DNA of 50,827 bases, taken from the IMG/VR virus record IMGVR_UViG_3300038429_000331, positions 1 to 50,827 of that record; one strand, written 5' to 3'. Source of the stretch: a virus. Under the pieces are notes generated by a model, which did not search any database, had not been told where the DNA came from, and saw nothing but the letters and a program-made list of their open reading frames with translations. Positions 29,084-46,178 of the stretch are shown here, piece by piece; positions within the stretch are counted from its first letter, which is position 1; each line of letters starts with the position of its first letter. The position numbers were made by a program, and so were the translations under genes.

Positions 29084-29229
29084 GCCGTTCCCCTGGTGCG
29101 CGCCGGCGGTTGGTATGACACCGGCGCGCGGCGATCTGTAGGGCGGTGATTCGCTACACCTTCATCCGCGTCGCTCCTTTTCCTGGACCTTTCGGGCACG
29201 CCAACGGCGGCCATTTGCTTGCAATTCAT
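29080..29229 (-). CDS. Short ORF between PolX-like and VRR-NUC genes
   Basis: 49 codons with ATG 29229 overlapping the upstream stop (ATGA) and TGA overlapping the next GTG (GTGA). The product is basic and low in hydrophobics. The double overlap fits the operon style, but there is no family support, so it may be non-functional. Confidence 0.4.
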   Translation of the reverse strand: MNCKQMAAVGVPERSRKRSDADEGVANHRPTDRRAPVSYQPPARTRGTA

Positions 29230-29795
29230 CCGCGCTGCTCCGGAGCGAAATACGGCAGGCCGACGAAATCGAACACATCTCGCTCGCACTCGACGAGCGA
29301 TTCCTGGCCATTGTCCAGCGCCGTGAATCCCGAGCCGTATGGATGCCACTTCCAGCCGATGCGCTTCGCCTCGCCGGCGATCCGTGCGTTCAGCTCTGCT
29401 GGCCCGGTGCGGCAGACGAGATAGTTGAACCAGTTCTCAGGAGTGGCCGCGAACAGGTCCACGGGGATCCCGCTGGCAACGTGGCGCATGAGCTTATTGA
29501 GCGGGCCGAAGGTTTCCGCGCCTTTCGAATTGAGGCGGCGGGAGAGAATGCCAATGGTCTCCATTTCCAGGATGCGCCTGTCGGCGAGATTGACATCCTC
29601 GGCGAACATCAGGCCGAAGGTGGTATCCATGTCGATCCGCGGGATGTAGACGATCTCGATGTCCCCGACGTCCGCCTTCTTGCGCCGGAGCGAACCCGCG
29701 ATCTCGATGCGCTCACAACACGGCTGCAGAGCATAGACGATTTCCTCGGCGACCTGGCGAGCCACGACATGGGGGTAGCGTTTTTCGCCGCTCAT
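29226..29795 (-). CDS. PolX-like DNA polymerase/nucleotidyltransferase core
   Basis: 189 aa, ATG 29795 overlapping the neighbour. The first half has IEIAGSLRRKKADVGDIEIVY, the palm motif of family-X polymerases (GSxRR...GDIE, with D-x-E metal ligands), then SGIPVDLFAATPENWFNYLVCRTGP, matching the third-carboxylate strand and the following loop, and KWHPYGSGFTAL. It lacks the PolX N-terminal 8-kDa lyase domain and PHP part, so only the catalytic core is present. A role in gap filling or nucleotide transfer is likely. Confidence 0.75.
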   Translation of the reverse strand: MSGEKRYPHVVARQVAEEIVYALQPCCERIEIAGSLRRKKADVGDIEIVYIPRIDMDTTFGLMFAEDVNLADRRILEMETIGILSRRLNSKGAETFGPLNKLMRHVASGIPVDLFAATPENWFNYLVCRTGPAELNARIAGEAKRIGWKWHPYGSGFTALDNGQESLVECERDVFDFVGLPYFAPEQRG

Positions 29796-30025
29796 CCGAT
29801 GCGCTCCTGCTCGCGGTGGAAGATCTTGCTCAGCCGCGACGACTGCTTGAGCGAGAGGTCTATGTCGGCATCTACCAGCGTCTTGATGCTGTCGAGGAAG
29901 CCGGCTTCCCACTCGTTCAGGTAGCGGCCGTGTTCCCAGAGGAACGCGACGTGATGCTTCCAGCGCCGGCGCGTCTCGTCGGACACGAGCTCGGCGGCGG
30001 GGAAGAGCGTGGGCTGCTGACTCAC
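29792..30025 (-). CDS. Small unknown protein
   Basis: 77 aa, ATG 30025 overlapping the replication-gene stop. Helical and charged (WEAGFLDSIKTLVDADIDLSLKQ). It sits between the replication gene and the PolX-like gene and may serve replication. No motif recognised. Confidence 0.55.
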   Translation of the reverse strand: MSQQPTLFPAAELVSDETRRRWKHHVAFLWEHGRYLNEWEAGFLDSIKTLVDADIDLSLKQSSRLSKIFHREQERIG

Positions 30026-31185
30026 GACGGAACCTCCGGGAAATCGTCCACGAACTCTTCAGCGGCAGCCGCGGGCGATTCAGCCGGCGCCGGCAAGCCG
30101 AGCAGCTTTCGCTCGTCGTCATCCAGCTTCATGCCGTGCTCGTGCTTGAACTTTGCAGCCTTCAGCGCCGCAGCTGCGACTTCCTCCGGTGTGGCAGCGT
30201 CCCGTTCCGCGCGCATCTCCTCGGTCGTCGGCGTGTGGTAGCCGTTGTCGGTCGCGGGCTTTGAAGGCGCGCCGTTCTCCCGCCACTTCGCGATCCAGTT
30301 CCATTCAAGGATCCCCTTCACGAACCAGGTCGACGGCTGCTTCCCCTTGCGCGCCTTCCCAATCGCGTAGGCGACAAATGCTTCGTCGGCAGAGCTGGCG
30401 ATCATCTTCGAGGCGCAGGCTTCGAAGTCAGTCAAAGTGAGGTGGAGTCCGGCGGCGGCGAGTTCGGTTTTAAGGCGGTCAGAGAAAGGAGCGGCGGCGG
30501 GAGGCTCTCCGGCCGGTACCGGGATCGGTTGGCTTTTTTGTGCGCCAGAGTTTTCCGGTTCCGGCCCGCCTCCTCTACCTTCTCTACCTCCTCTTCCTAG
30601 TTGCCCGGAAAACCCCTTTTTCCGGCCGGAATCCGGTTGGATAATATGGTTTTCCAGTTGGATTCCAGCCGGAATACTGCCTTTTCCAGATGGATTCCCA
30701 CCGGAAAAAGGGGTTTTCCGGTCTGCATCTGTGGAGTCACCACCGGAAAACTCGGTTCCAGGCTGCTTATCCGGCTGGATTCCATCTGGAATAGGCCCAC
30801 CACTGGATTTCCTGCTGCGATCATGTTCCCTAGCCTTGCGCACCGAGTCGAGTTCTTCCTGGCATCGATCAGTCCAGATGATCCCGTTGTCGTTGTTGAG
30901 GAGGTCACAGATTTCGCGGTTAGAGAGGAAGGCAACAAACTCCCGGAGATCCTGAATCGAAAGGTCCAGTTTTTTGGCGACGTCGGCCTCGATGCCGGCT
31001 TTCGTGAGATCCAGCCGGCAAGCCGCAGCTTCTCCGATCATGCAGTTCAGCGCCCAGAACTTTGCCTCCATGGCCCAGCCCTTTTCCCCTCCGTAGTGCG
31101 CATGCAACGCCGAGAATTTCCAGTTTCTGGGAGCGTTCACGTCGTGCGAAAAGAAGAGGATGCTGTCCTTCAGAGGTCTTCCCAT
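30022..31185 (-). CDS. DnaD/DUF4373-like replication protein
   Basis: 387 aa from ATG 31185, with GGAG six bases upstream; ATG 31197 is an alternative without a good site. Residues ~1-110 resemble the Lin1244/DUF4373 domain (DSILFFSHDVNAPRNWKF...YGGEKGWAMEAKFW), a winged-helix start shared by phage replication initiators. The middle (residues ~130-200) is low-complexity and coded by repeated sequence. The C-terminus has EEMRAERDAATPEEVAAA and LDDDERKLLGL. A DnaD-like primosome or origin-binding role is likely. Confidence 0.65.
   Translation of the reverse strand: MGRPLKDSILFFSHDVNAPRNWKFSALHAHYGGEKGWAMEAKFWALNCMIGEAAACRLDLTKAGIEADVAKKLDLSIQDLREFVAFLSNREICDLLNNDNGIIWTDRCQEELDSVRKAREHDRSRKSSGGPIPDGIQPDKQPGTEFSGGDSTDADRKTPFSGGNPSGKGSIPAGIQLENHIIQPDSGRKKGFSGQLGRGGREGRGGGPEPENSGAQKSQPIPVPAGEPPAAAPFSDRLKTELAAAGLHLTLTDFEACASKMIASSADEAFVAYAIGKARKGKQPSTWFVKGILEWNWIAKWRENGAPSKPATDNGYHTPTTEEMRAERDAATPEEVAAAALKAAKFKHEHGMKLDDDERKLLGLPAPAESPAAAAEEFVDDFPEVPS
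30601..30800. repeat. Iteron-like repeat cluster inside the replication gene
   Basis: Between 30601 and 30800 the plus strand has units of about 32 bp beginning TTTTCCGG or TTTTCCAG and containing GGATTCC and CCGGAA (starts near 30617, 30650, 30682, 30714). Mirror copies of CCGGAAAA/TTTTCCGG are interleaved, so the cluster has inverted symmetry. It codes the low-complexity part of the replication protein. In lambdoid phages the replication origin lies in the initiator gene in the same way, so this is a candidate origin. Confidence 0.55.
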
Positions 31186-31354: not shown

Positions 31355-31497
31355 TTCTTCACCCGTGGCAGGATCTCTTGCGCGATCTTCTCAGCTGCAG
31401 CGTCGATCGCGTCCGCCAGATAATCAGGATCCTCGAGCTTGCGCCGCAGCTCAGCCAGTCTGGCAGGGTGGAGCAGCTGCTCTTTGCTGCGCTTCAT
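31351..31497 (-). CDS. Small helical protein
   Basis: 48 aa; ATG 31497 overlaps the ParB-like stop (ATGA) and its TGA at 31351 overlaps the zinc-ribbon GTG start. Predicted all-helical (LLHPARLAELRRKLEDPDYL, AIDAAAEKIAQEILP). Translational coupling on both sides is the support. Function unknown. Confidence 0.55.
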   Translation of the reverse strand: MKRSKEQLLHPARLAELRRKLEDPDYLADAIDAAAEKIAQEILPRVKK

Positions 31498-32192
31498 GCG
31501 CCGTCCTTCGCCAGGGCGCGCAGTGCGCGGATGACTCTGCCCTTCACGTGACTGGAGGCGCAGACTACGATGACGTTCGGTCCGTTCGCGTCGATGATTT
31601 CGAACCCCTTCGTGGGTGTCCGGTCTCCTCGGTGGAACGTGCTGGTGCGGCCGTTAACCTTGCGCTTCTTCCCGTGCAGCTCGATCTTCGATTTCAACTC
31701 GCGCAGCTCGTCCCCTGTCATTGCGCGCAGGTGATCCTTCTTCAGGCCCTGCCCGGCCAGCCACTGGAAAGTGCGGAGCATCGAGCGGTGATAGGACAGG
31801 TACCCCGGCTTCCTGCCAAGCAGCCGGTCTATCTGCTGATCGTTGAGCTCGGGCCGGCGTTTCTTGATCTCGTCCGCAGCGGCCACGATTTCATCGTCCG
31901 TGAGCTGCTTGCGAACGATGTTCTCCTGCAGCTTGAGCAGTGGGATGTCCGACTCGCTGATGTTCTCCAGGATGTGTGCGGCGATCGTGGCCTCGTTGTT
32001 CATCTGGGCAACGCGGTAGCGTCGGTGTCCCCAGACCAGTTCGAAGCGCTCCCCGCGCGGGTACACGCCGATCGGCTGCAGCTGACCGTGCTTCGAGGTG
32101 CTCTCGATGAGCTCGCCCAGCTCGTCGTCGGTGTCGAAGCGCACGTTCTTGGTGATGAAGATCTTGTCCAGGAAGATCTCGCGGACCTTCAC
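31494..32192 (-). CDS. ParB-like protein, second copy
   Basis: 232 aa, ATG 32192 overlapping its neighbour. N-terminal ParB/Spo0J-type fold: FDTDDELGELIEST, then HGQLQPIGVYPRGERFELVWGHRRYR matches the Box II GxRR motif, and ENISESDIPLLKLQENIVRKQL follows with the HTH region. No ParA gene is seen nearby. Possibly a nuclease/adaptor or replication-associated ParB-family protein rather than a plasmid partition factor. Confidence 0.75.
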   Translation of the reverse strand: MKVREIFLDKIFITKNVRFDTDDELGELIESTSKHGQLQPIGVYPRGERFELVWGHRRYRVAQMNNEATIAAHILENISESDIPLLKLQENIVRKQLTDDEIVAAADEIKKRRPELNDQQIDRLLGRKPGYLSYHRSMLRTFQWLAGQGLKKDHLRAMTGDELRELKSKIELHGKKRKVNGRTSTFHRGDRTPTKGFEIIDANGPNVIVVCASSHVKGRVIRALRALAKDGA

Positions 32193-33389: not shown

Positions 33390-33842
33390 TCAGCTCAAAC
33401 GCAGGGTCGACATCGGCTCGAGCTTCAGCTCCAGCTGAGCCCGTTCGCCGCCGTCGACGTAGCTCAGCGCCAGGCGCTCGAGCTCTACCAGGTCCAGCGT
33501 GCATTGCGCGCCGAAGCTGGTCGTGTGCGGGCTGTTGATGCAAAGTGGTGCATCCTGGTGCTCGAGCTCGCGCAGGCCGGTAATTACGAGGCCCGTTCCG
33601 TCATCACCGATCGTGCGTGTGATGCCGATGATCGTGAGCTCGTCGATCCAGTCCGCCGGGAGCTCCGCGATCGCAACCAGGTGCTTCGCCATGCGGCCGA
33701 ATTGATTGATCAGCGCGGCGGATGGTTTCTCGGTGCTCTCCAGGGTGATGACGTCGAGCCCTCCGTCCTTGCGCTTGACGTCGTACTTCACGAGGACCTC
33801 AACTCGGTCCCGATCGCATTTGAACTTCAGCAGGCGTCTCAT
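33390..33842 (-). CDS. Unknown protein translationally coupled to ParB
   Basis: 150 aa; ATG 33842 overlaps the ParB stop (ATGA). Beta-rich start (RLLKFKCDRDRVEVLVKYDVKRKDG), then FGRMAKHLVAIAELPADWIDELTI and a final part with LELKLEPMSTLRLS. No motif known to me. Its stop region is followed by a long intergenic stretch with several hairpins. Confidence 0.6.
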   Translation of the reverse strand: MRRLLKFKCDRDRVEVLVKYDVKRKDGGLDVITLESTEKPSAALINQFGRMAKHLVAIAELPADWIDELTIIGITRTIGDDGTGLVITGLRELEHQDAPLCINSPHTTSFGAQCTLDLVELERLALSYVDGGERAQLELKLEPMSTLRLS

Positions 33843-35332
33843 TCGGAGGCCTCCTCGAGCACGTCGATGTATTCGGGATCCTTCTGCTTCTCCTGAGCTT
33901 TCAGCAGCGCAGAGGCCGCCTTGCGGGCATCTTTCAGGTCGACGCGGCATATCTTCGCTGCCGCCATGAGCAGCTCGCCTTTTCTCCCCCAGTAACGGGT
34001 TTCGATGTCCCCCGCGATCGTCATCTTCACCAACATGACGAATAGTCCCTTGCGGTCCATCCCGCGGATCCGCTTCTCGACCATGGCTCCCCGCTCCCAT
34101 TGCTCGATCTTGGCTAGTTCATACGACCCCTCACCGTGCTCGGCGAGGTCCAGGACGACCAGCCGAAGTAGTTCGATATCGAGATCCCTCTGCTTCGCGA
34201 CAGCTTCGACCGTCTTTCCGTAGATGATGCATCGGAAAGCCGCATTCAACTTGTGCTTCTGCTCCTCCTTCTCTCGCTGCGCCTTTTCCTTGGCGGCGGA
34301 GATCTGCGGAAGTGCGTGTGAATTGCCATTGCCGCGCACCTTGCCGTAGGTCATGCGCCCGATGCCCTCGCCGGCGACGATCAGGACCTTTTTGGCGCCG
34401 CGATCGTCCTTCTTGCATTCGTTCCAGTCATACGATCCGAGCGCGCCCTTCGGCTTGCCGCCGCCGCTCCAGCCCTTCTCGACCTCGAGGTGAGGGACGT
34501 CCTTCAGCTGTTCTCGTAGCTGATTGAGAAGGGCGGTCTGCTTCTTGGAGAAACAGGCGCGGTCGGTGCAGTAGTCCTTCTTGCCGTCTTTGCTGACGTC
34601 TGCAAAAAGCGCCGGCTGGAATCCTGCTCGTTTCGGACAGAGCTTGCAGGATCCCGCTGAGGGCACGAGGGTTTCGTCGTCCAGCTTCCAGCAGGCCTTC
34701 GAGAGCTCCATGAGGATGGAACGGTGGATCCAGGAATCCAGATCACGCACCGGAATAATCGACCCGTCGCCCCACCGATTGGTGATCCCGTTCTTCAAAA
34801 TTTCCTGCTGCTGCTTTGGCGCCAGACGAGCGATCAGGATCGCGTGCCCCGCGGTGATTTTATCCTTCACGAAGAGATCCCGGGCCTCCGGGACCAGGTC
34901 GAGAAGCTTCAACCGCTGGTAGATGTAGCTGGCCGACTTCCCGACTTCCTTCGCAATCTGCTCGATATCGTAGCCGGCCTTGTCGATGAGCCGCGCGAAT
35001 CCATCCGCCTCATCAAGGGGGTGGACGTCCTCCCGCTGCAGGTTCTCGATCGTCTGGATCTTGAGGACCTGCAGGTCGTCGAGCTCGCGCACGATCGTAG
35101 GGATCTCTGCCAGGCCTGCGAGCTTTGCGGCCCTCCAGCGTCGTTCGCCAGCGACGAGCTCGAAGTCGCCGTTCATCAGTTGCTTGCGCACGATAATCGG
35201 CTGCTGCACACCGACTTCTTTGATCGAGTCCGCGAGCTGCTGGAGCTTCACGGGATCGAAGCCGCCCACGCGGCGGTTGTCTGGATGTGGGATGATCTTC
35301 TCGAGAGAGAGCTGCTGTACTTGCTCGCTCAT
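33839..35332 (-). CDS. ParB/Spo0J family protein, main copy
   Basis: 497 aa, ATG 35332 with AAAAGGAGAACATC upstream; a longer frame further upstream is not supported. Residues ~5-90 contain IIPHPDNRR, VGVQQPIIVRK and GERRWRAAKL, the ParB/RepB signature; ENLQREDVHPLDEADGF is Box-like, and DIEQIAKEVGKSASYIYQRL is the HTH. The middle has a cysteine cluster (CKLCPKRAG, CTDRACF). The long C-terminus is unlike plasmid ParB. It lies in the recombination operon and may be a nuclease or a DNA-organising protein. Confidence 0.75.
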   Translation of the reverse strand: MSEQVQQLSLEKIIPHPDNRRVGGFDPVKLQQLADSIKEVGVQQPIIVRKQLMNGDFELVAGERRWRAAKLAGLAEIPTIVRELDDLQVLKIQTIENLQREDVHPLDEADGFARLIDKAGYDIEQIAKEVGKSASYIYQRLKLLDLVPEARDLFVKDKITAGHAILIARLAPKQQQEILKNGITNRWGDGSIIPVRDLDSWIHRSILMELSKACWKLDDETLVPSAGSCKLCPKRAGFQPALFADVSKDGKKDYCTDRACFSKKQTALLNQLREQLKDVPHLEVEKGWSGGGKPKGALGSYDWNECKKDDRGAKKVLIVAGEGIGRMTYGKVRGNGNSHALPQISAAKEKAQREKEEQKHKLNAAFRCIIYGKTVEAVAKQRDLDIELLRLVVLDLAEHGEGSYELAKIEQWERGAMVEKRIRGMDRKGLFVMLVKMTIAGDIETRYWGRKGELLMAAAKICRVDLKDARKAASALLKAQEKQKDPEYIDVLEEASE

Positions 35333-35345
35333 GATGTTCTCCTTT

Positions 35346-37034
35346 TCATGCGAAGAGCTCCTCGCTCGCGCGGAGCTCGCCCCTTCCGAGGACCTCAACG
35401 AGCTGCCGTGAGCGAAGGCGCTGGATGTAGGTATCGCGACTCGAGCGCTTGTACCCGGTCGATTCCTCGAGGGCTTCGCGAGCGATCGCCCCAGGGTAAG
35501 CCTCAATAAGGTGGGCGAAGATCTTGCGCTCGCCCTCCGGGAGCCGGCTCAGCCAGTGGGCTCGCAGTTCTGCCCCGGTGGCCATCGGCTCGAAGTCAGG
35601 CCCGAGCGCAGCAATGCCTTCTGCGGTTGCCGTGATCGTCGCCCCGACCTGGATGTATCCGCGGGACTGCAGGCGCTGCAGGTACGTATCTCGAGAGCTC
35701 CGCTTGTACCCGGTGAGCACCGTGATCTGCTCGCGGGTGGCTCGTCCCGAATATTGCGCGCAGATGGTCAGGATCGCCTTCTCGCCTGGCGCCAGACGGC
35801 CCTCTGGAGTCTCGGTGGCCCGAGCAGACTGGATCCGAGGCGGTCTGGACGGAAGTGGCACAGGAACCGGCCGGCTGGACGCCTGGACAGGACCTGGCAG
35901 AAGATTTCCGTTGAGCAAGGGAAGGACTTTGTTGAGGTCATCGATTACGCGGCTGATGGCCACCCAGAGCTGTTTCGAGGTCGCCTGCACGGCCTTCTGT
36001 GCCGCCGCATACCCCTGGGCCTGCCCATCCTTGAGTGCCCGTTGCAAGGCCCCGGGATCCTCCGCCGCGGCCGCTGGCTTCTTCGCGAGCTCGGCCTCCA
36101 GCTTAAAGATCTTCCGCTTGAGCTCTCGGGGATCCTCCGCCTTCGCCCGCTCGATCGTGGCCGCCATGCGCTCCTGGAGGATCTTCAGGTCGACCTGAGC
36201 GAGCTTCTTCGGCTCGATCTTCCTCTGCCCTGGCTCAGGCGTCGCGCTGGAGTTGAACGTCTCGCGCTCCCGGACGTGCACGCGCTTGAATAGATCTAGC
36301 CAGCCGGCGGACATGATCCAAGCGTCGCCCAGGGGAAGTGTCGCGAGAGTCTCAGTCACCTGCTCGAGCTGCTTCTCGGTGGCGTGGACTTTCATCCATT
36401 CAAGGATCGGGGCGCGGTCCCGGGGGTGCGCCGTACGCAGTGCGACCAGAACCTCCATCTGGGTCAGAACGTCCTTGTTGAGAACGGCCGATCGCTGGGT
36501 AACGAGCGTGCATCCCAGGCCACGGATCCGTCCGCGCCGCACGATCTCATCGATGGCGCCGAGCATTCTCATTTCATCCGGCCTCGGCTTCTGCGGGCAG
36601 AAGGCGTCCGCCTCATCCATGATCAGGTGAAGCGGGTTGCGGTTCTTGCGGTAAAGCTCCTCGGCGAAGTCGGCAACGAAGCGGCGCATGGCGGACTTCG
36701 AGAAAAGCGACAGATCGATCACCAGCTGCGGCGCCTCGTCCGCCAGGAGCGCGGCGATCACCTTGCCGGCGGCTTCCTCGAGCGGCACGTCCCCGTGGTC
36801 CCCGCCGAGGATCGTTACCGGGTAGCCGACGCCCTTCCCATCCGCGCTGGCCCTCAGCCCCCACCAGGCGCCGGTCGGGTCGAGGACCGCAAACGGCAGG
36901 CTGGCCTTCGAGAACTCCTCCGCGAGCACGGACGCCGTGTACGTCTTGCCGACCCCACGCATTGCCAGGATGGCGAACGTCTGGGTCACGGCCTTCAGGG
37001 GCAGGGAAAGGCCGGTGGCGATATGCAGGGTCAC
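35346..37034 (-). CDS. HerA/FtsK-like ATPase with tandem winged helices
   Basis: 562 aa, GTG 37034 overlapping the SbcDC stop. Residues 24-31 AMRGVGKT are Walker A; residues 137-143 LIMDEAD are Walker B; GCTLVTQRS follows as sensor. This is a HerA-type motor (DUF87). Then ~200 residues of coiled, charged sequence (PRELKRKIFKLEAELAKK). The C-terminus has two tandem winged-helix repeats sharing GYKRSSRDTY(L/I)QRL, at ~450-475 and ~525-550. HerA motors work with Mre11-Rad50 in archaea and here the gene is next to a fused SbcD-SbcC. No NurA is evident. Confidence 0.75.
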   Translation of the reverse strand: MTLHIATGLSLPLKAVTQTFAILAMRGVGKTYTASVLAEEFSKASLPFAVLDPTGAWWGLRASADGKGVGYPVTILGGDHGDVPLEEAAGKVIAALLADEAPQLVIDLSLFSKSAMRRFVADFAEELYRKNRNPLHLIMDEADAFCPQKPRPDEMRMLGAIDEIVRRGRIRGLGCTLVTQRSAVLNKDVLTQMEVLVALRTAHPRDRAPILEWMKVHATEKQLEQVTETLATLPLGDAWIMSAGWLDLFKRVHVRERETFNSSATPEPGQRKIEPKKLAQVDLKILQERMAATIERAKAEDPRELKRKIFKLEAELAKKPAAAAEDPGALQRALKDGQAQGYAAAQKAVQATSKQLWVAISRVIDDLNKVLPLLNGNLLPGPVQASSRPVPVPLPSRPPRIQSARATETPEGRLAPGEKAILTICAQYSGRATREQITVLTGYKRSSRDTYLQRLQSRGYIQVGATITATAEGIAALGPDFEPMATGAELRAHWLSRLPEGERKIFAHLIEAYPGAIAREALEESTGYKRSSRDTYIQRLRSRQLVEVLGRGELRASEELFA

Positions 37035-40000
37035 GCCGCGGTCCTCTTCATCTCGATCTTCTGCCCGATCGCCTCCTGGACCTCGGGCGAGTGCGTGATC
37101 ACGATCGTGTTTCTGCGCCCGCTCTCCTGATGCGCGGCCTCGAGCATCGTGAAGTACTTCTGGCGGGATTCAGGATCCAGCGCGCCATCCGCCTCGTCAG
37201 CGAACACAGTGAGGAACCGGATCCCTGTCGTGCGATCGCGGATAATGGCGAATGCGTCGAAAAGTGCACGGTAGATCCATACGCGCTCACCGCCGCTGAG
37301 CGTCTCGATCGGCTGCTCAGTCAGGAGCTCGTTGTCGATCACGATGATTGAGAAATCCTCGATCTGACGGGTTTTTGCGCCTTTGCCAGCAATGCGCGTC
37401 GTGCGGAATTCCACGGAGAACCGTGAGCCGTAAGCAGATGAGAGCATTCTGTTCGTGACTTCCGCGATCGAAGGCCCGAGTGCATCCAGCTCGAGCGCCT
37501 GGATCCCGTCGGGCCCGCAGGCCTGCTCGAGGTAGCGCCACTCCGCGGCCTCGGCCTCCGTCTTCGCCAGTGAGGTCCTCAGCTGCTCAAGCTCGCACTT
37601 CTGCTTTGCGATTGCCTCGAGCTGTTTCAGCGCGGCCTCCAGCTTCGCCGCGGCGGTCGCACGCTCCTCCTTGGCCGCGGTATAGGCCGTCCGAGCGGCC
37701 TCGTATTGCTTCAGAGCTTCGGCGTGGGCCGGCCGGATTTTCGGATCCAGCTGGGCGCGGAGGTCCTCGGCCTTCCGCGATAGAGCAGCTGCGTCGCCTT
37801 CCAGCGCGGCGATCTGGACGTTGAGCCTGTCGATCTCCTGCTCGGCTTTCGCCGCGGTCTCAAGCGTCGCCCGGGCCGTGACGACATCGATCTGTCGTAG
37901 TACCGTACGGATCCTCGTGAGCTCTGTCTCGTCGGCCTCTGGCAGCTTCGGTGGCGTCGGATTCGCCGGGTCCTTGATCACGATGAGCTCGGCCTCTTTG
38001 GCCATGATCTGATTGCCGAGAGTGTGGATCTTCTTCCTGATCGCCTTCAGCTGCGCGTCCTTCTCTGCGCGGCCCGCGTTGAGATCCTTGTGCCAGTGCT
38101 CTTTCCCGGCTCCGCACTCGGGGCATTCGTCGGTCAGCGGCTGCGCGAGCTCCTCCTGGAGAGTCTCGCCCTGGGAAAGAAGAACTCGGTGATCGCCCTC
38201 CAGGCGCGCCTTCTCCGTGCGGATCCTGGTGCGCTGCACTTCGAGTCCTTTGACATCAGCTGCATGAGCCTTGAGCGTGTCTCCATACTCAGCGCTGAAT
38301 CGGGCTCGCTCGGCATTGATCGCTGAAAGCCGCTCATTCTCGGCGCCCTCCTGTTCCTTCAGTTTCGCGTGACGATCGACATCGGCCTGCGCCTGGTCGC
38401 GCTGTGAAAGGGATACCTGGTAGCCCTTGATCGCCCTCTGTGCGGCCTGTACCTGGCTGAGCTTCTTCTGCGCATCATCCGCCGCGGCAGCGATGTCCTT
38501 TCCGATCTGATCCTGTTGGGCGACGTCCTTCGCGAGCTGCTCGACCTCCGCCTTCAGCTGCTTGCCCTGCTCTACTGCCTTCCCAATCGCGACGTCGGCT
38601 TCGTACACGTCGACGTCCGCCTGGAACTTCGATGCCTGAACGTTCGGCTCTTCCGCGACCAGCCGCTCCATGAGAGTGATCTGACCGCGGCCGACTGTGA
38701 CCTGGCTCTCCAGCGCAACAGCCCGCGCCTTCGCGCTCTCGCTGTAGGCCTGGATGTAGTCCAGCCCGGCGAGCTCGCGGAAGATGGCCTTCTTCTCGCC
38801 CTTCGTGGCGTCCGACAGATCCGGGTTGCTCTTTGTTGGCCGCTGGCTGACAAACGCGGACCGGAGGAACAGTGGGAGGCTGCCGATCAGCTTCTCGATG
38901 GCAGTCTCATATTCCTCTTTCCTCCCGTTCGTGAGCGGGATCCAGCCGAGACAGAGCTCGGCGGGACGGTCCGGCGGATCGCCGTGGAACAGGTGGTACT
39001 TCACGCTGCCGCTGGTGTTCGCGCCGTCGATCTCAATGAGCGCTCGGTATTCGGTCCCGGTGCGCTCGTCCACGAACCAGAGCTCCCGCGCCGAATCGCG
39101 AAGCCGGAAATGATCCTGCAGCTTGCCGTCGCGCGTGAGCATGCAGGGGTATGGGTGCATGTTCTCGATGAGCGTGGACTTACCGGCGCCGTTGGCCCCG
39201 ATGAGCGCGATGAGTCCCGGATCCTTCTTGTCCAGATCGATGTCGATCTCGTCCTGGCGGAGGCCCTTCCAAATCCCTACGGCCCCCCGGAGGCGCAGGC
39301 GGCGCAAGCGGAAGTGCATGCCCGCGGCCGCGCCCCGCTCCTCTGCCTCGCGTTCCAATACTGCTGCCTTCAGCTCGACGGAGGTCGGAACGTTGTAGCC
39401 CTGGCCGCTCGCTTCGGCGTAGATTGAGAGTTTCTCTGCCAGCCGATGCTTCTCCGTGATCTCCGCCGCGCGCACGGTCTCCGTCGGAATGAGGTCCACC
39501 GTCACGCGGGAGCCGGGAAGCGCGCCTGCCAGCAAGTAGGAATTGAGGTAGGACATAGTATCGATCTTCGCGGCCTCCTCCTTCGTCGCTCGATAGCAGA
39601 CCCACGCTTGCACGCCTTCAACATCGCCGGCCGGCTCGGGCCAAGGGAGGGAGAACTTCACGCGCCGCGGATGCGGGAACGGAATGCGCTCAACTTTCGG
39701 CGGAATCCCGGGGCCTTCGAGCGTGACCAAGTTGCAGCCGCATGTTCCCAGGTGGCCCCAGTCGGTGTGGTAGGCAGGCCCAGGGTAATAGGCTTCGAGG
39801 CCGTCGATCTTCTGCTCAAGGTGGACATGGCCAAGAGCCGCATAATCAAATCCCGCGAGTTGGAGATCCTCGCGCCCGATGCCGTCTGCGGAGACGGTGC
39901 GATTCTGGAGCGTAGAACCCTGAACCGATCCGTGGAAAAGGAGAATCGCAGGAAATTCAGGCTGGGCTGCGCGCATGGCACCAAAACTCAGCAGAATAGA

Positions 40001-40447
40001 TCGAACACTTTCTGAGAGTTTCCGATTTGATTCGTCTGCGCTGAGATCCTGCTCGCCAGCAAGGAGCCATTCTTTTCCTGCTTCCGGCATTCCGAAGAAC
40101 ATGATTCCAGCGACAACCTGAGCATCATCGGGGCGCAGATTGATGAAGCGATGCCCCGCTTCCAACTCGCACAGAACGTCATACGCCCCTGGTACGTCGT
40201 GAGTGACGGTGCCCTCGATCGACAGGATTGGGGCGACTTCGAGCATGCGCTGAATCACGTTCACGAGCCGCGGGAATCCCGCACTATGTGAATTCTGAAC
40301 GCCGCGGTCAAAGAGATCTCCCGCGAACGCCCAGGCGTCGATCTGCTCGCGCGTTCCTACTTCCAGTGCACATTCAAGACTGGCGATCGCGAGATCTTGA
40401 TTCTCTTTCGAGAAATGCACGTCTGCAAGGTGAATCATTTTTTTCAT
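37031..40447 (-). CDS. SbcD-SbcC (Mre11-Rad50) single-chain fusion
   Basis: 1138 aa from ATG 40447. Residues 1-~375 are the SbcD/Mre11 phosphoesterase: LADVHFS (D9, H11), GDLFD (D44), THD (H83, D84, where GNHD is expected), LLFHG and GHVH (H207/H209). From ~377 to the end is a Rad50/SbcC ATPase: Walker A GANGAGKS (417-424), a coiled coil, a CPEC zinc hook near residue 775, SGGER signature and Walker B VFADEADGA. The two proteins are normally separate. It would resect DNA ends for recombination and lies with the HerA-like motor. Confidence 0.85.
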   Translation of the reverse strand: MKKMIHLADVHFSKENQDLAIASLECALEVGTREQIDAWAFAGDLFDRGVQNSHSAGFPRLVNVIQRMLEVAPILSIEGTVTHDVPGAYDVLCELEAGHRFINLRPDDAQVVAGIMFFGMPEAGKEWLLAGEQDLSADESNRKLSESVRSILLSFGAMRAAQPEFPAILLFHGSVQGSTLQNRTVSADGIGREDLQLAGFDYAALGHVHLEQKIDGLEAYYPGPAYHTDWGHLGTCGCNLVTLEGPGIPPKVERIPFPHPRRVKFSLPWPEPAGDVEGVQAWVCYRATKEEAAKIDTMSYLNSYLLAGALPGSRVTVDLIPTETVRAAEITEKHRLAEKLSIYAEASGQGYNVPTSVELKAAVLEREAEERGAAAGMHFRLRRLRLRGAVGIWKGLRQDEIDIDLDKKDPGLIALIGANGAGKSTLIENMHPYPCMLTRDGKLQDHFRLRDSARELWFVDERTGTEYRALIEIDGANTSGSVKYHLFHGDPPDRPAELCLGWIPLTNGRKEEYETAIEKLIGSLPLFLRSAFVSQRPTKSNPDLSDATKGEKKAIFRELAGLDYIQAYSESAKARAVALESQVTVGRGQITLMERLVAEEPNVQASKFQADVDVYEADVAIGKAVEQGKQLKAEVEQLAKDVAQQDQIGKDIAAAADDAQKKLSQVQAAQRAIKGYQVSLSQRDQAQADVDRHAKLKEQEGAENERLSAINAERARFSAEYGDTLKAHAADVKGLEVQRTRIRTEKARLEGDHRVLLSQGETLQEELAQPLTDECPECGAGKEHWHKDLNAGRAEKDAQLKAIRKKIHTLGNQIMAKEAELIVIKDPANPTPPKLPEADETELTRIRTVLRQIDVVTARATLETAAKAEQEIDRLNVQIAALEGDAAALSRKAEDLRAQLDPKIRPAHAEALKQYEAARTAYTAAKEERATAAAKLEAALKQLEAIAKQKCELEQLRTSLAKTEAEAAEWRYLEQACGPDGIQALELDALGPSIAEVTNRMLSSAYGSRFSVEFRTTRIAGKGAKTRQIEDFSIIVIDNELLTEQPIETLSGGERVWIYRALFDAFAIIRDRTTGIRFLTVFADEADGALDPESRQKYFTMLEAAHQESGRRNTIVITHSPEVQEAIGQKIEMKRTAA

Positions 40448-40929
40448 GATGCTGCCTGCCTTTCGTTGCTGTGCAGGCGCGTATGGCACCGATCACAGAG
40501 AATGAGCAGGTTGGATGGATCATGATTCGGTCTGGCGCTGGTGCGTCCCATGCCGTCGATATGATGGACCGTCAGTTCGCGACCGAAGGTAGCCTTATGC
40601 TCGGCGTTGCTTATGCCGCAGTGAGTGCATCCGTCACGTTCTCTCCGCTCGATTACTTCAGGATGAGCTCCGAAGTGGTACTTCTGTTGGTAGCGCCTGA
40701 TGTACTCGCGCGACTTCTGGAGATTTTTCCTCCAATACCATTTCGAATAACATTTCTCACAGAGGCCGTGGCCAGTGATGATTCCAACCGTTCCGCATCC
40801 AGAGCAGGCCCTTATCTTTTCGGGCTTCATGGGGATGCCTTGTTCCCGTCTCTGCCGTCTCTTGTAGCAGCGCAGACAGAGATCCTTAAAATCAATTTCT
40901 CTTTCGTTACAATCCATGCAGAGCTTCAT
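40444..40929 (-). CDS. HNH endonuclease with zinc-ribbon arms
   Basis: 161 aa, start 40929. It opens with two CxxC pairs (CMDCNE, CLRCYK), then CSGCG and CEKCYSKWYW, and closes with the HNH core CTHCGISN ... LTVHHIDGMG ... NLLILCDRCHTRLHS. The multi-ribbon layout is like free-standing homing endonucleases. It separates the 86-aa gene from the SbcDC gene and its DNA looks AT-richer, suggesting insertion. Confidence 0.8.
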   Translation of the reverse strand: MKLCMDCNEREIDFKDLCLRCYKRRQRREQGIPMKPEKIRACSGCGTVGIITGHGLCEKCYSKWYWRKNLQKSREYIRRYQQKYHFGAHPEVIERRERDGCTHCGISNAEHKATFGRELTVHHIDGMGRTSARPNHDPSNLLILCDRCHTRLHSNERQAAS

Positions 40930-42887: not shown

Positions 42888-43096
42888 GCCGGCCGTCCCT
42901 CAGGATTGCCCCCAGACCGCGGGGCGGGGGCCTCGCCCCTACCCCGGTGATGAGCGCCGTATCTATTGACCTCCATCTCCCTGAAGACGCAGTAGCGAGC
43001 AAAGTCGCTGACGTGCTTCCAGCGCCGCTTCTTGGCGACGTAGGCTTCCAGGGATGCGCGCTCCTCGGCAGTTACTCTGAAACGAACTTCGCTCAT
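42884..43096 (-). CDS. Small DNA-binding-like protein (RHH type)
   Basis: 70 aa, ATG 43096 overlapping the lipoprotein stop. VRFRVTAEERASLEAYVAKKRR and WKHVSDFARYCVFREM have the strand-helix-helix layout of ribbon-helix-helix or mobilisation-type DNA-binding proteins. The Arg/Pro-rich tail is disordered. Early gene with possible regulatory role. Confidence 0.5.
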   Translation of the reverse strand: MSEVRFRVTAEERASLEAYVAKKRRWKHVSDFARYCVFREMEVNRYGAHHRGRGEAPAPRSGGNPEGRPA

Positions 43097-44073
43097 GCCG
43101 GTGACCTCCCGAGAATCGCAACATCCGATCCACCCTGTTCGACAGCCAAGAATTTCCCGTCGCCGTAGGTAATTGCTGTCCAGAAATTCTCCGATGGCAG
43201 GTTATCGAGATACCAATGCACCCCATCAGCAGATACAGCCGCCGTGCTGGTCGGCTGGCTGTTCGTCTCGCAGGAGACGACGACAAACTCGCCACCTCCC
43301 GCAGTGATAGCCTGCCAACACGTCACGCCTGGAAGCTGCACCAGCGTCCAATCGACTCCATTCGGCGATACCGCGGCGGAAGAACTCTCCTCTGAAATTG
43401 CTACGAACTCTCCATCGCCAAACGTCACCGATTCCCAACAGAGGACGGCGGGCATCTTTTCTATTTGCCAATGGATTCCGTCTATTGACGTCACCGCGGC
43501 ATCAGAGTTTCTGGCAGGGGCCGTCCCCTGGGCGACAGCGACAAACTTGCCATCACCGCACGTGACCGATTGCCACTCTGCAGCCTTAGGTAGTTTCTCC
43601 AAAGTCCAGTGCTGCCCGTCGGGAGAGGTTGATATGAGATCGTTCGCACTTCCGCCACCAGAGAAGGCAACGAACAATCCATCGCCATAGGTGATCGAGT
43701 ACCAATCCGCAGCCGCGCCCAGGTCAGCTGTCGACCAGGTCTTTCCGTCGACAGACCAGATCGCGATTGAGCTCCCGTACGCGATCGCGACGAATCTACT
43801 GTCGCCGAATGTCACAGCCTCCCAGGCTTCTACCGGGACGCTGTATGAGGTCCACGCGACTCCATCGCTCGAAACGTGGTCGAGAGATCCATCCCATTCG
43901 AGCGTGACAAAGATCCCGTTTCCGTAGGTGACGCTCTCGCAAGAGACCTGAGATAGCGAGGAAGGCTGCCAACTGCTCGACTGGGGAATCACTGGATTCT
44001 GAACCGTTGGCGCGGCGACGCTGCAGCCGATTGTCAGGATCAGAATCCCCAGGAGCAGAAGGACCTTCTTCAT
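43093..44073 (-). CDS. Early lipoprotein with seven-bladed beta-propeller
   Basis: 326 aa, ATG 44073 overlapping the HTH-gene stop. Signal peptide with lipobox: residues 1-16 hydrophobic, then ...LTIGC (Cys ~17). The mature part has seven repeats starting near W(E/Q/Y)(A/S)(V/I)T(F/Y)GDG-FVA and including SxDGxxW (blades 1-6 clear, seventh partial), closed by an N-terminal SSWQPSSLS strand, i.e. a velcro-closed BNR-like propeller. It would sit on the membrane surface. Such early lipoproteins can exclude other phages, but that is inference. Confidence 0.8.
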   Translation of the reverse strand: MKKVLLLLGILILTIGCSVAAPTVQNPVIPQSSSWQPSSLSQVSCESVTYGNGIFVTLEWDGSLDHVSSDGVAWTSYSVPVEAWEAVTFGDSRFVAIAYGSSIAIWSVDGKTWSTADLGAAADWYSITYGDGLFVAFSGGGSANDLISTSPDGQHWTLEKLPKAAEWQSVTCGDGKFVAVAQGTAPARNSDAAVTSIDGIHWQIEKMPAVLCWESVTFGDGEFVAISEESSSAAVSPNGVDWTLVQLPGVTCWQAITAGGGEFVVVSCETNSQPTSTAAVSADGVHWYLDNLPSENFWTAITYGDGKFLAVEQGGSDVAILGRSPA

Positions 44074-44324
44074 GCAGGCCTCACAGAACGGCCAGGGCGA
44101 GGGCGGGGTGCCCCGCCCTGGTCCGGGATCTCGATCACAGCCTCACGGGTATTGCGCCGCGCGTACTCTTGAGCCTGGGCCTTGGTGACGCGGTAGCCAG
44201 CGCCGACACGGATGCAGCCGAGGCGCTTCGCGGCGATCTCGCGGTACAACGTCTTCGCTGAAACGCGGAAGCATTCAGCAACTTCGGGAACGGTGTTGAT
44301 GTCGGCGAGCTGCTCGAGGGTCAC
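44070..44324 (-). CDS. Excisionase-like winged HTH protein
   Basis: 84 aa, GTG 44324 overlapping its neighbour. NTVPEVAECFRVSAKTLYREIAAKRLGCIRVGAGYRVTKAQAQEY-type layout (positions ~8-55, only partly quoted) matches the MerR-like HTH of excisionases, ending with IPDQGG and a basic tail. In temperate phages it directs excision with integrase. Here the integrase is broken. Confidence 0.7.
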   Translation of the reverse strand: MTLEQLADINTVPEVAECFRVSAKTLYREIAAKRLGCIRVGAGYRVTKAQAQEYARRNTREAVIEIPDQGGAPRPRPGRSVRPA

Positions 44325-44512
44325 GCAGATACCGCCTTTCGCTTTTCCTCGCGATCCAGCTTCTCCAGGATTGCCAGACGAGCGAATCCGCCCTGGGTCT
44401 GCTCGTTGCCATCGCAGAAATCCAGGAAGTGCTGCAGTTCGTTGCCCTTGAACGGAACCCTCAAGAGCTTTCCCTTGACTCTGTCCGCTTGCGGTCTTTT
44501 TATCCTGTTCAC
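44321..44512 (-). CDS. Small RHH-like regulator, leaderless candidate
   Basis: 63 aa with GTG 44512. The -10 element at 44524-44519 predicts a start point at or very close to the GTG, so the message would be leaderless. The sequence is basic with a strand (KLLRVPFKGNELQ) and helices (GGFARLAILEKLDREEK), a ribbon-helix-helix-like layout. First gene of the leftward early operon. An alternative TTG further in has GGGAAAG upstream. Confidence 0.55.
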   Translation of the reverse strand: MNRIKRPQADRVKGKLLRVPFKGNELQHFLDFCDGNEQTQGGFARLAILEKLDREEKRKAVSA

Positions 44513-44518
44513 GATTAG

Positions 44519-44547
44519 ATTATGTCCTGATACGGACTATTTGTCAA
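44519..44547 (-). promoter_or_regulatory. Strong leftward early promoter
   Basis: On the minus strand TTGACA (44547-44542) and CATAAT (44524-44519) are 17 bases apart. Drives the RHH-like gene and the early operon. The spacer contains an inverted repeat GTCC-N6-GGAC, a probable operator. Confidence 0.8.
44524..44537. promoter_or_regulatory. Inverted-repeat operator in the early promoter spacer
   Basis: GTCCTGATACGGAC on the plus strand has GTCC and GGAC arms separated by six bases. It lies between -35 and -10 of the leftward promoter, so a bound dimer would block it. The size fits a lambda-like or RHH operator. Confidence 0.5.
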
Positions 44548-44567
44548 GCAACTTTTATATTTTTTTG

Positions 44568-44596
44568 TTGCGTTATGGTTTTCTTGTCAGTATAAT
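44568..44596 (+). promoter_or_regulatory. Rightward promoter facing the repressor fragment
   Basis: TTGCGT (44568-44573) and TATAAT (44591-44596) with a 17-base spacer. Points to the XRE fragment and attP. Divergent with the early promoter, as in a lysogeny switch. Confidence 0.7.
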
Positions 44597-44631
44597 GAGT
44601 TATTGAATCCTGGGAGGGGGCGGAGAAGCGT

Positions 44632-44733
44632 TTGCACAGGTTTCTCGAAAGCCTCGACAGGGTTCTTGACGAACGAGAAGAACGTCGGCCTTGGCTCGCA
44701 AAGACATCAGGCGTTCCGCTTAGAGTCCGGTGA
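44632..44733 (+). pseudogene. Truncated XRE-type repressor
   Basis: TTG 44632, with GGAG 6 bases upstream at 44622-44625, to TGA 44731-44733; 33 aa. FLESLDRVLDER, WLAKTSGVPL are the opening helices of an XRE/CI HTH domain. The reading frame ends just where helix 3 (recognition) and the rest of the repressor should follow, four bases before the tRNA half. The divergent promoters and operator agree with a repressor position. As encoded here it cannot be an intact repressor. Confidence 0.65.
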
Positions 44734-44737
44734 TCGC

Positions 44738-44784
44738 GGTGGCTGTTAACCACTAGGTCGCTGGTTCGAGTCCGGCCGGGGGAG
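44738..44784 (+). other. Probable attP core: 3' half of tRNA-Asn(GTT)
   Basis: The sequence gives an anticodon stem (44738-44754) with anticodon GTT at 44745-44747, T arm GCTGG-TTCGAGT-CCGGC (44760-44776), and acceptor 3' strand CGGGGGA plus discriminator G (44777-44784). The matching 5' half is not present upstream. A tRNA 3' half beside an integrase is the usual attP of a tRNA-targeting phage. Integration would regenerate the host tRNA-Asn. Confidence 0.8.
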
Positions 44785-44816
44785 CGAAAAGAATGACGGC
44801 GAAAAGAAATAGAGAG

Positions 44817-44841
44817 AGGCTCCTGGAGAGGGAGCCTTTTT
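44817..44841 (+). terminator. Rho-independent terminator after attP
   Basis: AGGCTCC-TGGAGAG-GGAGCCT followed by TTTTT on the plus strand. It would end the repressor-fragment transcript and, after integration, the restored tRNA transcript. It probably came from the host with the tRNA end. Confidence 0.8.
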
Positions 44842-44896
44842 CATGCCCGATGGATCGCAAATGGATTGCAGACGTTTGCAAATCCGGGAGTGAACC

Positions 44897-45835
44897 ATGA
44901 CGTACCCCAAGCCGTTCAAACGTCCCGGGCGCAAGACCTACTCCTTCATGTATGCGGATCCCGATGGGACCCGCCGTCTGGTTTCGACGGGCTGTGAGAG
45001 ACGCAGCGACGCCGACGACTTCGTGCGCAACTACGTTGACGCGCGAAGCTCGCGCAGCGGAAACATCACGTTCGGAGAGTACCAGGTCCCGTTCTACAAA
45101 CCTGACATCTGCCCCCACGTCCAGCGGCTCCGCGATTCCAGACGTTCAATCGGGTTGACGCACATCGTGAAATGCCGGCAGTGGCTCGATCGTTGGATCG
45201 TCCCGGACAAGCTCTTCATGGCGAGGCCGATGAACAGGATCACCCGCGGAGATCTCCTGGAGCTCCGCGGCCGAGTGCGGGCCCGCGTGAAGGTGGATTC
45301 GAAGCGGATCCGCGGGGACGGGATGAACACCGTGAACAAGGCCATGAGCGCGGTCTTCACCGTTTTTGCCGAGGCCGCCTTCCGCCAACACATCCCGGCA
45401 AACCCCGCGGCCGATATCGGGAATGTGCTCTATGATCTTGAAGAGCGTGAGGTCCTCTCCCTCGAGGAGCTCGAGCAGCTCTTCGCGAAGCCATGGGAAA
45501 GCCGGCTCGCGTTCGATGTATTCCGCTTTGCCGAGCTCACCGGTATGCGCTGCAGCGAGATCCTATCCATAGTGCCTTCTGCCCAGCTGCGCGGCGACGT
45601 CCTGCAGGTGGATACCGCATTCAAGGGAAAGGAGCGCGGGAAGCCGAAGTGGGGAAAGACCAGAACGATAGTGCTCTGTGCGGCCGCGCTCGAGATCCTT
45701 TCCCGCCGCCCGGGCGGTTTCCGATACGAGGATGGACGACGTTTGGGTGAGACCTGGTGGCGCGACGGCAGAATTGAATTACACTATAAATGTCTTAGAG
45801 GACGAATTGTGTCTCTATTTGCACTTGAAATGTAA
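44897..45835 (+). pseudogene. int: Tyrosine integrase, N-terminal part
   Basis: ATG 44897 with GGGAG upstream. Residues ~1-90 form an arm-binding-like domain, followed by SAM-like helices and the catalytic domain start: TGMRCSEIL with the first catalytic Arg, KWGKTRTIVL with the beta-hairpin Lys. The frame then runs into AT-rich foreign sequence after WWRDG and stops at 45833-45835. Box II (HxxR) and the Tyr are absent from this part. The phage therefore seems unable to make a complete integrase from this copy. Confidence 0.85.
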
Positions 45836-45870
45836 TAAATAGGAGCGTTCATATGGATAGTGTGGCAGCC
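45770..45870. mobile_element. AT-rich insertion splitting the integrase (IS end or chimera)
   Basis: About 28% G+C by count in the core (45770-45840) against GC-rich flanks. It begins after GACGGCAG and ends before GCAACAGGTC, replacing ~10 integrase codons and shifting the frame. It includes a short inverted pair ATTACA/TGTAAT (45779-45784, 45831-45836 region) and an AGGAGCGTTCATATG string that looks like a ribosome site plus start codon. This resembles the end of an insertion sequence, or a misjoined read. No transposase is present. Confidence 0.5.
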
Positions 45871-46178
45871 AGCACTTCGCAACAGGTCTCGAGGATCGGG
45901 AGCTCAAGCTCGGGAATCGTATTCTCACGCCGCACTGCCTCCGGCATTCTTTGAACACGCACCTGTTGGACGCCGGCGTGGATCCGCTGAAGGTCCAGCT
46001 CTATCTGTGGGGCAAGACCGCCGACGACGCCGAGCAAGGAAAGACAAGCAGGTTGACGAAGACGCAGGCGATCTACACCCACCTTCTCGATCGAATGACA
46101 GAGCCGGTGGCTCAGGCAATCGAAAAACTCTACAAAGCGGGGAAGGGCATGTCCGAGAAGGCCTCAGGGACCGCATAA
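45861..46178 (+). pseudogene. Tyrosine integrase, C-terminal part
   Basis: Frame differs from the N-terminal part and has a TAG just upstream. Contains LTPHCLRHSLNTHLLDAGVD, with the HxxR box, and KTQAIYTHLLDR, with the catalytic Tyr. These match a single tyrosine recombinase split in two. No proper start codon with a ribosome site precedes it. TAA at 46176-46178 is followed by the shared terminator. Confidence 0.85.

Follow-up and report, generated by a model that had tools for sequence, protein, structure and literature searches.

A truncated XRE/CI-type repressor gene beside a tRNA-Asn attachment site in a phage that probably infected a spirochaete

Layout of the locus and its attachment site

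The window, by which we mean the whole stretch of DNA analyzed, is the 50.8-kb virus record IMGVR_UViG_3300038429_000331 (50,827 nt). It contains a complete phage gene set, with TerL, portal, capsid protease, tape measure, baseplate and amidase open reading frames (ORFs). Based on the gene order across its two ends, which is that of the interior of a related record (G001), the window looks like a permuted, near-complete phage genome. G001 (57% TerL relative) carried neither a tyrosine integrase nor an HTH_3 repressor and is uninformative on the lysogeny module. By eye, a single early region of the window (29226-30122, 31494-32192, 33839-35506, 35346-37034 and 37031-40489) encodes a DNA polymerase beta-like palm/thumb protein, two ParB-like proteins, a HerA/terminase-like ATPase and a large SbcCD-like protein. 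The features of the region under study are listed below; L124 is a relative described in the next section.

44070 to 44324, minus strand: HTH_17 excisionase-like protein, divergent from the repressor; L124 has a counterpart
44321 to 44512, minus strand: first gene of the early operon, 63 residues, ribbon-helix-helix-like by eye only
44519 to 44547, minus strand: early promoter TTGACA-N17-CATAAT, with the palindrome GTCCTGATACGGAC (44524-44537) within its spacer
44568 to 44596, plus strand: repressor promoter TTGCGT-N17-TATAAT, sharing its -35 and spacing with L124; one copy per genome
44622 to 44625, plus strand: Shine-Dalgarno-like GGAG, 6 nt upstream of the TTG
44632 to 44733, plus strand: 5' fragment of an XRE/CI-type repressor gene, 33 codons, TTG start, TGA stop, ending before the recognition helix
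44738 to 44787, plus strand: attP core, tRNA-Asn 3' half, 50/50 identical to Spirochaetaceae MAG PMZS01000075.1
44812 to 44842, plus strand: hairpin and T-run (GGCTCC..GGAGCC TTTTT) 3' of the core; terminator scan, minus strand only
44851 to 44873, plus strand: candidate integrase arm sites TGGATCGCAAA / TGGATTGCAGA, P' side, function putative
44897 to 45835, plus strand: tyrosine integrase, N-terminal and part of the catalytic domain, 312 residues, apparently truncated by insertion
45767 to 45868, no strand assigned: AT-rich apparent insertion in the integrase, about 92 nt plus GGCAG on both edges
45870 to 46178, plus strand: remaining integrase (HxxR, W and Tyr motifs), in a different frame after the insertion

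The repressor promoter has its -35 hexamer, TTGCGT, at 44568-44573 and its -10 hexamer, TATAAT, at 44591-44596, separated by a 17-nt spacer. The ORF behind it, hereafter the stub, reads MHRFLESLDRVLDEREERRPWLAKTSGVPLRVR in frame 0 from the TTG at 44632 to a TGA at 44731-44733, and four bases (TCGC) separate this stop from the attP core. Its codon score was negative (-6.4), an 11-mer inside it (44692-44702) is related to the candidate P' arm-site motif, and an ssrA-like end was not found by eye on the 33-codon ORF. The recognition helix and everything downstream of it were absent from all three frames, which is more than a single base error could account for. Positions 44720-44730 match the tRNA T-loop (44765-44775) at 10 of 11 bases, and this likeness was considered as a possible scar. 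The idea was rejected, as a simple deletion gives the wrong order and chance is a plausible cause.

The early genes lie on the minus strand, starting at 44512, and their promoter is strong. The palindrome GTCCTGATACGGAC is unique in the genome and is plausibly an operator that has persisted despite the loss of the neighboring XRE repressor. The 63-residue protein had no family match in Pfam/PHROG-type searches, and family searches with several other early genes likewise gave no match; one early gene, for example that of this ribbon-helix-helix (RHH)-like protein, could specify an unrelated kind of repressor. A lipoprotein-like protein with EPTP-type repeats is encoded at 43093-44073, where the early operon starts.

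The core is followed by the integrase after 110 bp. In the Spirochaetaceae MAG that carries the identical tRNA-Asn, a related integrase likewise lies downstream of the tRNA. Among the best integrase relatives in Spirochaetota genomes, four (L013, L024, L025 and L027) lie directly after tRNA-Asn; other relatives follow tRNA-Val, -Arg or -Gly. Together, the identity of the core and the position of these integrases after spirochaete tRNA-Asn argue that 44738-44787 is the real attP of a tRNA-targeting tyrosine integrase, and they make a spirochaete host very probable. The hairpin at 44812-44842 would serve the tRNA as a terminator after integration; tRNA-Asn relatives show the same arrangement after the core. 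Since phage sequence lies on either side of the core in the window, the sampled DNA was unintegrated and does not represent a prophage end.

Exact and degenerate scans of viral contigs for the tRNA-Asn core found none; these and the other collection scans were exact-word methods, by which distant relatives are missed. In the complete chromosome G010 no core repeat that could mark the attR of a tRNA-Asn element was found within 70 kb, and the other genomes with tRNA-Asn elements stop at contig edges. In the same chromosome a solitary tRNA-Asn 3' fragment (G010:C1:4095903, L057) lies a long way from the intact gene; no repressor adjoins it, and it is probably an old attachment scar. The chromosome also has a 96-bp exact repeat (L041) near G010:C1 530850 and 546970, 16 kb apart, which holds a tRNA-Val 5' half and its upstream region and adjoins a related integrase, an unusual arrangement for a tRNA-targeting element.

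Homology of the stub and its intact relatives

The Pfam search with the stub gave no match, PHROG_9425 was reached at E 0.081, and a purpose-built generic XRE (HTH_3) profile of 30 spirochaete proteins scored only -0.3 bits. When the 33-residue peptide was searched against 393 spirochaete genomes, the top match was a 122-residue XRE protein whose alignment started at its start codon. With a per-genome E of 0.0024, which by itself is not significant across 393 genomes, this match was used as a lead. Following it up led to L124, part of the record G420 (IMGVR_UViG_3300035696_000088), which looks circular because of its 127-bp terminal repeat.

L124 encodes, in this order, HTH_17 on the minus strand, a promoter, a 128-residue XRE repressor on the plus strand and a 372-residue integrase on the plus strand, the same order as in the window and with an integrase of the same family. 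Its repressor scores above the cut-offs of two Pfam families, HTH_3 and Phage_CI_repr. In the reverse search, this repressor had a single match in the window, at 44635-44745 (E 9.6e-5); the stub ranked first among 1121 stop-to-stop frames, and none of 20,000 shuffles scored as high. From the start codon to L30, 17 of 30 residues (57%) are identical. Three-protein alignment of the stub with both relatives showed F4, L5, E6, RRPWL, SGV and L to be invariant. The promoters before the repressor in the window and L124 share the form TTGCGT-N17-TATA(A/T)T, which occurs once in each genome. The homology stops at L30, directly before the recognition helix of the relatives (STINNWF). L124 differs from the window in that its repressor and integrase are complete, no tRNA core was found and its structural genes are unrelated; the two have the lysogeny module and one further protein in common and nothing else.

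The 122-residue protein belongs to L119, a spirochaete chromosomal remnant (G350:C80), which has the same-family XRE repressor and the N-terminal part of a related integrase. It differs from the window in that its repressor is complete, its integrase is truncated and it is located in the host chromosome. At L119:8429-9218, the neighbors of the intact repressor are the truncated integrase and a host gene whose product has, by eye, a metallo-beta-lactamase fold; the repressor may have been kept as an immunity gene. A related integrase also occurs in L058, which has no such XRE repressor. In both L124 and L119, arm-like repeats lie at or just past the repressor stop codon, overlapping it in L124, from which we conclude that attP and repressor are tightly packed and that a change at one can harm the other.

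These data identify the stub, as far as sequence comparison can, as a true 5' relic of an XRE/CI repressor gene. They bear out an earlier note on this DNA, which had described a CI-like repressor fragment ending four bases before a tRNA-Asn attP core, with a promoter, GGAG and TTG leading into an XRE helix-turn-helix start: the signals and coordinates were located, and the core identity and the L124 match agree with that description. The recognition helix and oligomerization domain that the note had reported missing were indeed not found, the former in any of the three frames and the latter as any second match in the window to either relative's repressor. The stub thus lacks both a complete helix-turn-helix with its recognition helix and the C-terminal/oligomerization region of a working repressor. 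The full-length XRE gene that the note proposed to look for at the same place in relatives is present in L124, in a module of the same order. Neither finding that it named as contrary appeared: no further XRE or HTH_3 repressor was found within the window, and the two homologues found were full length (122 and 128 residues), with no short form among them.

The interrupted integrase

The break in the integrase was mapped by alignment to eight relatives. The protein is intact to TWWRDG and then stops in frame, and homology returns in another frame (HFATGLEDREL...PHCLRH...YLW...IYTHL). The 312-residue product is without the HxxR, W and Tyr motifs and so does not carry the full set (R, HxxR, H/W, Y) of an intact integrase. 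The interruption of about 97 bp consists of 92 bases at 31.5% G+C, compared with 62.5% in the flanks, with GGCAG on each side, and looks like a small insertion with target duplication. No match to it was found in viral contigs or phages; plasmids gave weak, partial matches only, and nothing was convincing. Its predicted fold was nothing special (z -0.42). An 11-bp inverted repeat flanks it (45749-45759 and 45880-45890). Exact-peptide searches of viral and genome contigs for the integrase and recombination proteins found nothing.

Probable loss of lysogeny and competing explanations

We consider it likely that the window derives from a once-temperate spirochaete phage with a defunct lysogeny module, in which a rearrangement at attP truncated the repressor. 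The ancestral module would have resembled that of L124, with promoters separating a minus-strand early operon from an XRE/CI repressor, attP and integrase on the plus strand. The rearrangement would have had its endpoint inside the repressor gene, directly to the left of the attP core, either as a swap of a tRNA-Asn attP/int cassette or as a deletion reaching the core. It would have taken away the recognition helix and the whole C-terminal part, leaving a 33-residue peptide that, without the DNA-reading helix, should be unable to repress. In a separate event, the insertion of about 97 bp would have severed the catalytic HxxR, W and Tyr region of the integrase. The most economical history would place the repressor truncation first, with the integrase dispensable afterwards.

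The relic's identity, the layout, the missing helix, the identity of attP and the broken integrase were all read from the sequence. With the helix absent, no other XRE repressor and a broken integrase, lysogeny should be impossible, and the phage has very probably lost its dormancy in the host; it would neither repress itself nor integrate, and would propagate lytically. A sister genome with an intact repressor adjoining the tRNA-Asn core was not found in the collections scanned; the rearrangement itself was therefore unseen, and we infer it, along with what kinds of event took place, in which order, and that the phage lives lytically. The earlier note's suggestion that lysogeny was lost through an att-related rearrangement accordingly stands in part: the loss is backed independently by the broken integrase, and the break fits an att-driven event and an ordinary deletion near the core alike. 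The stub is still open across 30 codons, which counts against a reading of decay; either the loss was recent or the peptide is retained.

Retention could mean that the short ORF acts as a small protein, for example as a leader peptide or by interfering, as a helix-1/2 fragment, with the XRE repressors of other phages, and that the real repressor is another protein, for example the 63-residue RHH-like one. The short ORF retains an intact promoter, GGAG and start codon as well as 30 open codons, and other regulators are encoded adjacent to it. We nevertheless regard such a peptide as distinctly unlikely, given the full length of both relatives, the lack of any short-form homologue among those found, the absent recognition helix and the negative codon score. 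A different concern is that the contig fuses two phages at the repressor/attP and that the truncated gene is unreal. The record is metagenomic, and tRNA 3' halves are common to many elements, so misjoins may arise there. However, a misjoin within the common core would not alter the stub; the join must fall in 44721-44737, a stretch common to no sequence examined, and the window otherwise forms a single coherent phage genome, which makes an artefact very improbable. Finally, the ORF could be no gene at all and simply the left arm of attP, with integrase arm sites and the promoter. Its internal 11-mer resembles the P' arm motif and generic HTH profiles miss it; accidental XRE likeness was in fact favored at first, from the generic profile score, and was overturned by the specific relatives. 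Homology with the L124 repressor from the start codon, together with the common promoter, leaves chance scarcely credible.

If loss of lysogeny is the correct reading, a temperate phage has apparently been caught losing lysogeny, with the repressor promoter and first codons left and the break against the attachment site. L124 provides an apparently circular reference for the repressor-attP-integrase module from a phylum whose described phages are few, and the dense packing of repressor and attachment site makes a link between site-switching and immunity loss testable with more genomes. We also entertain, as a speculation that is rather unlikely to hold, that in this spirochaete phage module arm sites overlap the repressor 3' end, such that integration-site switching destroys immunity in one step and makes virulent phages.

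Comparison with known systems

In mycobacteriophage BPs, attP lies within the repressor ORF and integration replaces an unstable C-terminus (PMC4557955). In this type of immunity, which depends on integration, the repressor of the virus form bears a degradation tag and that of the prophage is stable. The window is similar: a single strand carries both repressor and integrase, attP is located at the repressor gene, and the early promoter is divergent. The earlier note had likened the arrangement to mycobacteriophages with integration-dependent immunity. The gene order supports the likeness; the defining feature fails, as attP is not inside the ORF. Unlike in BPs, the ORF in the window ends before the core and is without the recognition helix. 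Its stop (44731-44733) precedes the core (from 44738), so that integration leaves the gene unchanged and cannot restore it, as the note had also argued. A BPs-type arrangement in which the altered repressor end is activated by integration would draw on the shared order of repressor, attP and integrase beside a divergent early operon (PMC4557955), and on the arm-like repeats that overlap the repressor stop codon in L124. Barring recoding of the stop, we rejected it as a current mechanism and consider it extremely improbable, since the stop lies four bases ahead of the core, the helix is in no frame and the integrase is broken.

We class the phage as a temperate-phage derivative defective in lysogeny, a kind that is already known: its repressor and integrase are broken, and its lytic and structural genes were kept. 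Virulent derivatives of temperate phages that are missing part of the lysogeny module include deletion mutants of Streptococcus thermophilus phages. In those derivatives, likewise, repressor and/or integrase function was lost and lytic genes were retained. The window is unlike them in that its break lies right against an attP core of tRNA origin and that the host, very probably, is an uncultured environmental spirochaete.
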